Below are positions 15,354 to 43,014 of a stretch of DNA of 64,000 nucleotides, piece after piece (within the stretch, counting starts at the first letter, position 1; each line of letters opens with the position of its first letter). The position numbers and the translations under genes were made by a program. Below the pieces are notes generated by a model. That model worked only from the letters and a program-made list of their open reading frames with translations, was not told the origin of the DNA and ran no database searches. Origin of the DNA: Oscillospiraceae bacterium (GTDB taxonomy: Bacteria > Bacillota > Clostridia > Oscillospirales > CAG-272); the NCBI GenBank assembly GCA_015064155.1, contig SVST01000006.1, forward strand, positions 54,548-118,547, written 5' to 3'.

Positions 15354-15860
15354 CTATTCCTCTGTGTGTAAATGGTCATATTGCCAACGAATCGGATTTT
15401 CATAGATATACTTTATGTGTTCTTCGTAATCCTTGCAATTCCTAATAACATGATCAATGAAACGTTTTTGCCAAATTGAAAAACCTATACGCTTTGTAAT
15501 ATATCCCTTTAATTGTTGAACCACCCTCGACATTGTAGGGGCGACCATCGGTCGTCCGTATTCATCGGCACGAATAATCAATAGCAAATGAATATGATCA
15601 GGCATTATCACATAATAATCGACATCTATTGCAGGATATGTTGAAGAAATATTGTTTATAGCTTCATCAACAATAATTCCATATGTTGATAAAGCAATAT
15701 CTTGCGGACGACTAATAGTCGTCCCTAGGTTTTCCCAAAAATAATTACGTCGTTCTGATGTGCATATTGTCAAGAAATATCCCCCCGGCGAACTATAGTC
15801 ATAATTTTTGAGCCGTATATCTTTTCTTTTCGGTAATTCTGTTTTGTTATCCATATTCAT
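15354..15860 (-). CDS. rayT: REP-associated tyrosine transposase (IS200-like, HUH/Y1 family)
   Basis: A 168-residue RAYT/TnpA-REP protein: KNYDYSSPGGYFLTICTSER at the start, the HUH motif in MPDHIHLLL, and the closing block HIKYIYENPIRW. Such proteins cut and join single-stranded REP hairpins and are usually domesticated. ATG at 15860; an alternative ATG two codons later (15854) fits equally well. A promoter lies at 15871-15899. Two REP-like palindromes occur inside the gene, at 15535-15557 and 15706-15728, both in frame; the first encodes GRPMVAPT. A tandem REP array lies just upstream at 15957-16209. The gene appears intact. Confidence 0.9.
   Translation of the reverse strand: MNMDNKTELPKRKDIRLKNYDYSSPGGYFLTICTSERRNYFWENLGTTISRPQDIALSTYGIIVDEAINNISSTYPAIDVDYYVIMPDHIHLLLIIRADEYGRPMVAPTMSRVVQQLKGYITKRIGFSIWQKRFIDHVIRNCKDYEEHIKYIYENPIRWQYDHLHTEE
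15535..15557. repeat. REP-like palindrome inside rayT, copy A
   Basis: GTAGGG tail at 15535-15540, then GGCGACC-ATC-GGTCGTCC. It matches the repeat unit of the neighbouring array (GGACGACC-GAT-GGTCGTCC reversed) except for one base. It lies in frame after the HUH motif codons. Confidence 0.9.
15706..15728. repeat. REP-like palindrome inside rayT, copy B
   Basis: GGACGACTA-A-TAGTCGTCC, a perfect 9-bp arm palindrome followed by CCCTAG. It is oriented opposite to copy A, so the GTAGGG-type ends point outward and the pair brackets 194 bp that include the HUH codons. Confidence 0.85.
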
Positions 15861-15870
15861 CACCCATACA

Positions 15871-15899
15871 ATTATAACACAAATCGGCAGAGAAAACAA
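15871..15899 (-). promoter_or_regulatory. Probable sigma-A promoter of rayT
   Basis: On the minus strand TTGTTT (15899-15894), 17 nt, TATAAT (15876-15871). A 9-bp perfect inverted repeat, CGGCAGAGA with TCTCTGCCG (15885-15910), overlaps the -35 region and could be an operator or a weak terminator of upstream transcription. Confidence 0.5.
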
Positions 15900-15956
15900 T
15901 ATCTCTGCCGAAAATTGTGGGTGTATAGGTTCTTCGTAAGACGTGCATGCACGTCC

Positions 15957-16209
15957 GCGGACGACCGATGGTCGTCCCACTTATAAAAAACGACTTAACC
16001 GAGAACAGACGACCGATGGTCGTCCCTACACTTATGAAAAACGACTTAACCGATAGCGGACGACCGATGGTCGTCCCTACACTTATGAAAAACGACTTAA
16101 CCGATAGCGGACGACCGATGGTCGTCCCTACACTTATGAAAAACGACTTAACCGATAGCGGACGACCGATGGTCGTCCCTACTTATGAAAAACGACTTAA
16201 CCGATAGCG
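15957..16209. repeat. Tandem REP array, 51-bp period, five palindromes
   Basis: GGACGACCGATGGTCGTCC-type palindromes start at 15959, 16007, 16058, 16109 and 16160: one 48-bp step, then three exact 51-bp steps. The spacer contains CTTATGAAAAACGACTTAAC. The first unit differs by a few bases and the last spacer lacks 2 bp, while the middle units are nearly identical, which points to recent amplification. The array lies between the GH4 gene and rayT, both on the minus strand. The palindrome is the same family as those inside rayT. Confidence 0.95.
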
Positions 16210-42443: not shown

Positions 42444-42686
42444 TGATGACTCATCTCCTTTCAATCAATTGATCAATCTATTTTTCCGGTTCAATCTACC
42501 ATATATAACACATCTTGAGTCCAATATAGTGGATTTTCAGATATATATTTTATATGTGTTTCATAGTCTCGCAAGTTACGGATAATATGATCGTGTGATC
42601 GATATTGCCAAATGTTTTCCCCAAATTCTTTATTACAAAATCTTTTAAAAGTTGAAATAAAACGCGATACAGCTGAATTTTGCGCT

Positions 42687-42712
42687 GTAGGGACCGGCGT
42701 CCTCGACGGTCC
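42687..42712. repeat. REP-like palindrome inside rayT pseudogene, copy A
   Basis: GTAGGG tail at 42687, then GGACCG-N10-CGGTCC. Encodes the NGPSRTPVPT segment after the HUH motif, the same place where the intact gene has its copy A. Confidence 0.85.
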
Positions 42713-42857
42713 GTTTTCAGTTGAAGTTATGCTTAATAAAATGTGAAGATGATTCGGCATAATCACATAATCATCTATTGATATCTCGTTGTAAAAATCA
42801 TTCAGTTGATTGAGGTACTTCTCCGCGATTTTACCATAGGACGTTAATTCTATAAAC

Positions 42858-42883
42858 GGACCGTCGGGGACGCCGGTCCCTAC
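42858..42883. repeat. REP-like palindrome inside rayT pseudogene, copy B
   Basis: GGACCG-N10-CGGTCC followed by CCCTAC, inverted relative to copy A. Encodes VGTGVPDGP, aligned with LGTTISRP of the intact gene. Confidence 0.85.
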
Positions 42884-43014
42884 AATGGAGGATAGCATAC
42901 ATCTTTTGTTTTTCGTACAGATCGTTTAAAAATATATGCCTTCCCCATTGTAATCCGCCCCTGGCAATCGTGTGGTTTTTCGTTTTTTTAATTCTTCCAT
43001 TGCTCGCTCAAACT

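Follow-up and report, generated by a model that had tools for sequence, protein, structure and literature searches.

The closest described systems are those in which a RAYT (TnpAREP) protein is associated with REP palindromes (REPtron). According to the portion of Nunvar 2010 available to us (PMC2817692), every rayt gene has two inverted REPs at its flanks; the accessible part of Di Nocera 2013 (PMC3733652) likewise describes RAYT genes as REP-flanked, with some of the flanking repeats overlapping the gene ends, and reports REPs inside various genes. As stated in the available sections of PMC8266576, TnpAREP acts on the folded single strand of a REP, which it binds and processes, but not on the inverse strand, and α-3 of the enzyme contacts the REP. 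Together with excerpts of PMC6006769 and PMC8049555, these constitute the literature with which the present locus was compared. Among the matches listed from the open literature, at the level of titles and the beginnings of abstracts, no description was found of an inverted pair of palindromes inside the transposase gene itself, which is the arrangement found in the clostridial genes considered here.

The window (the whole stretch of 64,000 nucleotides that was analysed, from an Oscillospiraceae bacterium) contains a gene of this kind, with the following parts.

15354-15860, minus strand: RAYT-like HUH/Tyr transposase gene, 168 aa, recognised by its open reading frame, NF047646 and PDB 4er8
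15408-15410, minus strand: codon of the predicted catalytic Tyr151, outside the bracket formed by the palindromes; invariant in A1
15486-15533, minus strand: codons of helix 110-125 of the predicted model, the expected α-3, which co-varies with the REP family
15535-15557, plus strand: site A, GTAG and a 19-bp REP-like palindrome, in frame (codons GRPMVAPT)
15588-15605, minus strand: HUH-motif codons (MPDHIH), flanked by the palindromes of sites A and B
15706-15728, minus strand: site B, a 19-bp REP-like palindrome (15706-15724) with the decayed tag CTAG (15725-15728), in frame (codons LGTTISRP)
15884-15911, minus strand: leader hairpin TCGGCAGAG...CTCTGCCGA, directly upstream of the start codon
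15957-16183, minus strand: array of five REP-like palindromes with a 51-bp period, upstream of the gene, in the orientation of site B

The encoded protein matches NF047646 (REP_Tyr_transpos) with an E value of 1.7e-18, at 66.9 bits against a curated cut-off of 80 bits. Its best solved relative by sequence is PDB 4er8, TnpArep bound to a REP hairpin (E 2.4e-10), which is also the top fold match of its predicted model. H89, H91 and Y151 are invariant in A1, giving the HUH motif and one tyrosine of an IS200-like fold. Tyr151, which we take to be the catalytic tyrosine, is aligned with a tyrosine of 4er8. An Rfam search gave no more than two matches, both below threshold (E 0.16 and 0.9). The gene is called RAYT-like because the inverted pair is inside it, the five upstream REPs have a single orientation, and no REP was found within 900 bp downstream.

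According to the preliminary description, the HUH codons are bracketed by two in-frame palindromes (15535-15557 and 15706-15728) with GTAG-type ends outward, and an array of the same family lies just upstream. The sequence bears out the two in-frame palindromes. The GTAG end of copy A points away from the HUH codons as claimed, but that of copy B does not stand, its tag being CTAG; the array does consist of five copies of the family, which resemble site A (23/25) more than site B. A pattern covering both sites occurs eight times in the window, site B in reverse reading accounting for one of these occurrences, whereas 100 shuffles give an expectation of 0.00. The outer span of the pair is 194 bp, with 148 bp between the palindromes, and B matches the reverse complement of A at 19/23 positions. 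Since the tag of B is CTAG and the stem of A has one unpaired position, this pair is degenerate; A fails the strict hairpin rule, and the inverted-repeat score of 11 is the lowest among the genes whose two sites align. A search of the whole genome allowing up to 3 mismatches yields 11 members of the family (a twelfth match is B backwards): two lie at the in-gene sites, five make up the array and four are located elsewhere. In the predicted model site A corresponds to loop 102-109, which leads from the HUH strand to helix 110-125, and site B to the low-confidence loop 46-52. The gene looks like a decayed, hybrid case of the in-gene pair, in which the upstream array likely takes the place of the decayed inner site B. 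Hairpins like that of the leader, which may shield the gene from read-through, are found near the same place in L014, L015, L018, L091, L110 and L115. The 86-aa ORF at 15947-16207 on the plus strand consists of the REP array (GRPMVVPTLMKNDLTD repeats) and is likely not a gene.

The window also contains a second gene of the same type, which the preliminary description did not mention.

42503-42997, minus strand: second RAYT-like gene, with one in-frame TAA
42687-42712, plus strand: its site A palindrome
42858-42883, minus strand: its site B palindrome

The pair in this second gene is near-perfect (30/31 across the aligned stretch), cleaner than that of the first gene, and belongs to another palindrome family, with 12 matches in its own genome at up to 2 mismatches, two of them within the gene.

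Homologues were gathered from three sources: 60 relatives, with matches in 15; contigs of named genomes, from which 80 of 540 relatives were kept; and 297 genomes of the order, with matches in 75. The resulting 156 distinct open RAYT-like genes were reduced to 138 by clustering at 80% protein identity; interrupted or partial reading frames and exact duplicates were left out, as were L073 and L203, in which no HUH motif is recognisable. A second sample, from the class, comprised 44 genes out of 47 loci and was not clustered. Because A1, the seed of the searches, has rows with peptides encoded by the palindromes, genes of a similar kind may be over-represented; for the named contigs, two peptide patterns from outside the palindromes were used. 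In the later definition of a pair, B had to match the reverse complement of A with a score of at least 12 and a tag was needed.

Whether paired in-frame palindromes recur at these two codons in Clostridia, the check proposed in the preliminary description, is answered strongly in the affirmative by both samples: a GTAG-tagged, outward-facing inverted pair occupies the same two sites in 116 of the 138 genes, and in 27 of the 44 genes of the second sample. Measured from the HUH codons, hairpin centres peak in the bins -140 to -101 (70) and +40 to +79 (75), all other 20-base bins holding at most 4 from up to 138 genes. Under the strict hairpin rule, both hairpins are present in 66 of the 138 genes, B alone in 9, A alone in 13 and none in 50; many of the genes that fall short of both have a mismatch in the stem yet a long inverted repeat between the sites. 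The tags are strictly oriented, with GTAG at the 5' outer end of B in 72 of 75 genes, CTAC at the 3' outer end of A in 77 of 79, and no GTAG tag at the inner end of either site in the same sets (B, n=75; A, n=79). B matches the reverse complement of A with a score of at least 14 in 114 of the 138 genes, often exactly across 23-31 bp with the loop included. Pairings across genes attain that score in 6.3% of cases and synonymous shuffles in 2.6%; for the direct orientation the figure is 15/138. The unit is the pair rather than the single palindrome. In a distant control, the best 30 hits in the phylum of NF047646, a distant Y1 group, neither an in-gene pair (0/30; top score 9) nor a GTAG hairpin was found; the HUH motif was recognised there in 8/30 loci by the first pattern and in 30/30 by a wider one. 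On a tree built without the two sites, presence and absence of the pair switch 20 times, from which it follows that most of the 22 pair-less genes arose separately. Among cultured bacteria, the pair is carried by Gemmiger formicilis DFI.6.10 (L114), in which two RAYT-like genes lie side by side, each with an in-gene family of its own, and, more weakly, by Fonticella tunisiensis (L080).

The two sites change together. Under the clustering used there are 35 palindrome families. Of 116 genes, 105 have B and A from the same one, where shuffling gives 20.4 on average and at most 33; in 46 of the 116 the two sites are identical. When 41 disjoint pairs of nearest genes were compared, both sites kept the same family in 30 pairs, both differed in 10, and only one pair was discordant. 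The encoded peptides vary with the family (GRPMVAPT and LRAIRESPLRG, for example). Constraint is also visible at the level of DNA. Between genes of 60-90% identity, residues that are shared use the same codon at a fraction of 0.89 in the palindromes (n=4195) versus 0.49 elsewhere (n=28996), these being counts over overlapping, non-independent gene pairs, uncorrected for phylogeny; for valine, the same codon is used in 100% versus 34%.

The family also follows the enzyme. From its place after the HUH strand of the predicted model, helix 110-125 should be α-3 of TnpAREP. Across 139 genes, the similarity of site-B palindromes is related to α-3 identity with r 0.59 and a regression value of 0.52, the other segments giving 0.195 (inner), 0.005 (N-terminus) and -0.03 (C-terminus), and the permutation maxima of the segment regression being 0.066-0.107; a simple rule set the boundaries of the protein segments, and phylogeny entered only through the other segments. 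Physical linkage is a poor explanation, because site B is about 170 bases from the α-3 codons in the window gene and the N-terminal segment that adjoins it is unrelated. This coupling is the best evidence that the in-gene palindrome may be the enzyme's own substrate, and the earlier presumption that the hairpins are its substrate gains support from it.

Genes with and without the pair differ in their surroundings. In the 166 of 182 genes that have 900 bp on each side, REPs are found within this distance of 26 of 33 genes without the pair, versus 33 of 133 genes with it (Fisher p 1.6e-8 without correction for relatedness; the samples taken separately give 2e-5 and 0.001). The exceptions are these 33 pair genes that are also flanked, and 7 of the 33 pair-less genes that have no REP within 900 bp. 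Seventeen genes are tagged only at site A, 12 with an upstream REP and five without; the nearest upstream REP faces outward in 11 of the 12, completing the bracket. It is the reverse complement of A at 25/25 bases in L016, L069, L246, L249 and L288, three of which (L069, L246 and L249) belong to one family. The first window gene fits this A-only pattern, its B tag being decayed and its upstream array facing the same way. Three genes are tagged only at B (L079, L170, L201), with mixed flanks. In L016, where site B is decayed, the REP that is the reverse complement of A is near -249 from the HUH codons, and this N-terminal REP is in frame and read as GRPQRKK. L067, L181 and L279 have no tagged in-gene palindrome and carry REPs on both sides, the nearest of which face inward, unlike the internal pairs.

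The best reading of these sequence patterns is that known RAYT genes and the present ones share the same type of REP pair, flanking in the former and intragenic in the latter. The outward inverted palindromes probably serve as the enzyme's own REP substrates, tying the transposase and its REP family into one heritable unit. In this scheme each DNA strand would expose one GTAG hairpin that the enzyme could bind and cut as single-stranded DNA, and the gene would always be its own possible substrate. A change of specificity in α-3 would be matched by both in-gene palindromes, and the pair, as a resident copy in cis, would likely hold the REP family and the enzyme together; it may also seed dispersed REPs elsewhere. 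A further step, that the coding sequence is itself a REPIN, a self-contained seed that on reaching a new genome gives rise to a new REP family from its in-gene copies, while specificity and substrate co-evolve, is put forward tentatively, with a likelihood somewhat short of even.

The main rival to own-substrate REPs is autoregulation, in which the protein binds the hairpins of its own gene or mRNA, or B pairs with A in the mRNA, to limit expression. As expected for a role at the level of RNA, the minimum-energy structure of the segment from B to A has the two sites paired with each other in 111 of 114 genes; a hairpin precedes the start codon in the window gene and several homologues, and flanking REPs could act in a similar way. 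However, the orientation of A is equally strict (77/79), though only B yields a GTAG hairpin in the mRNA, and the partner of A-only palindromes, where one was found, is mostly upstream of the reading frame. The differences between the two copies point the same way. Among 1015 stem pairs from 116 genes, 25 have changed on both sides between B and A, and all 25 still pair, while the number of doubly changed pairs under random placement has a mean of 2.4 and a maximum of 8; in a further 18 the difference affects a single side, and 72 lack pairing in B and A alike. The choice of the stem for maximal pairing favours this result. Since the doubly changed pairs preserve each hairpin and break the B:A duplex, the individual hairpins seem to be what is maintained. 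The strict orientation of A and these hairpin-preserving differences disfavour autoregulation as the sole reason for the pair, and we regard it as unlikely.

Passive insertion is less probable still, perhaps one chance in many. Here REPs would have entered two tolerant surface loops and been maintained solely by conversion from plentiful genomic copies, in the manner of the Rickettsia palindromic elements. Both sites are indeed loops in the predicted model, one with pLDDT <50, and REPs within unrelated genes are reported in the accessible part of PMC3733652. On the other hand, the fixed orientation, the joint switching of the two sites and the coupling to α-3 demand more than tolerance, and genome counts, made with exact patterns on draft genomes with the in-gene copies included, suggest that pairs persist where other genomic copies have gone. 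Thus, in G231, G215 and G320 the sole two matches of the CTTG type are the in-gene ones, as are the sole two matches to the 19-bp class pattern in G249, and in G134 none of the 26 other class-pattern matches is of the in-gene type; an in-gene pair can, it follows, persist without further matching copies in the genome. By the same counts, REPs of the GTCCTCGAC type have matches (4-176) in 10/10 genomes with an in-gene pair versus 4/17 in which none was found, those of the CTTG type in 6/6 versus 8/21, and those of the GATTCACGAATC type in 3/3 versus 6/24; CTTG-type matches number 49 in G030, 66 in G302 and 63 in G141. A strict rule of one gene for one family was rejected, as some families occur in genomes without a found gene (the 4/17, 8/21 and 6/24 above).

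Dispersed doublets are a separate matter. G001 has 176 matches to the GTCCTCGAC-type REP, with several outward doublets about 100 bp apart, and outward GTAG doublets were seen in G030, G001, G302, G012 and G022, in regions chosen for that arrangement; inward doublets also occur, in G134. When the gene's inner segment was set against 13 doublet spacers, 11 scored below the maximum of 100 shuffles; the spacer of L300 equals the maximum (13) and that of L302 exceeds it (14 versus 12, in G302), possibly by chance. That the doublets are deletion derivatives of the gene was rejected, their spacers being mostly unrelated to it, with G302 less clear.

The preliminary description had also raised an exchange of the catalytic cassette, in which the pair would let recombination swap the HUH segment between genes. 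L177 and L147, whose outer parts are alike (0.65 at the N-terminus, 0.57 at the C-terminus) and whose inner parts share 0.23, could be read in this way; the bracket is not the unit here, because the helix after site A differs as well. In 12,880 comparisons no gene pair combined high inner with low outer identity, the largest gap being 0.64 versus 0.34, and the idea is left with very little probability. The weakest alternative, already envisaged in the preliminary description, that the peptide is conserved by protein or codon constraint with the palindrome as a by-product, could appeal to the recurrence of GRPMVAPT-like peptides in related genes but has practically no chance of being right, ruled out by the synonymous shuffles (2.6% against 114/138) and by codons frozen beyond the amino acid, the peptides themselves differing between families.

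Own-substrate REPs within the gene would bear on the continued match between REP families and their transposase, and on the origin of such families. With the enzyme and its presumed substrate on the same DNA, the sequence of a gene reveals its probable cognate REP, many natural pairs become available for tracing specificity to residues of a single helix, and seeding is made accessible to testing. One stretch of DNA is under an unusual double constraint, as protein loop and as hairpin, and enzyme and predicted target would be inherited as one piece in many Clostridia.

Among known systems, IS200/IS605 elements also employ an HUH Y1 transposase that acts on hairpins; their hairpins are subterminal element ends, according to the excerpt of PMC6006769, whereas those described here are within the reading frame. 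The Rickettsia palindromic elements and other intragenic REPs, as far as the consulted part of PMC3733652 describes them, resemble the present palindromes in being translated in frame and occur in many unrelated genes, in contrast to the inverted pairs considered here, which occupy two fixed sites of one gene family and are coupled to an enzyme helix. Group 3 REPs (S. maltophilia type) share the short perfect palindrome with a small loop right after GTAG, and the available sections of PMC8266576 make no mention of an in-gene pair for them. The in-gene pair resembles the REPIN/BIME in consisting of two GTAG REPs with outward tags (degenerate in the window gene), but it has a coding spacer of about 145 bp with the HUH codons and one pair per gene, whereas the REPIN/BIME is a non-coding unit with a short spacer and many copies, features that this pair does not show. 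The RAYT/TnpAREP system (REPtron) is nearest, with its HUH and tyrosine protein, the fold of 4er8, inverted GTAG palindromes, and REP families common to gene and genome; the window protein scores below the NF047646 cut-off, and the pair is placed not beside the gene but in its reading frame, in two fixed loops around the HUH codons.
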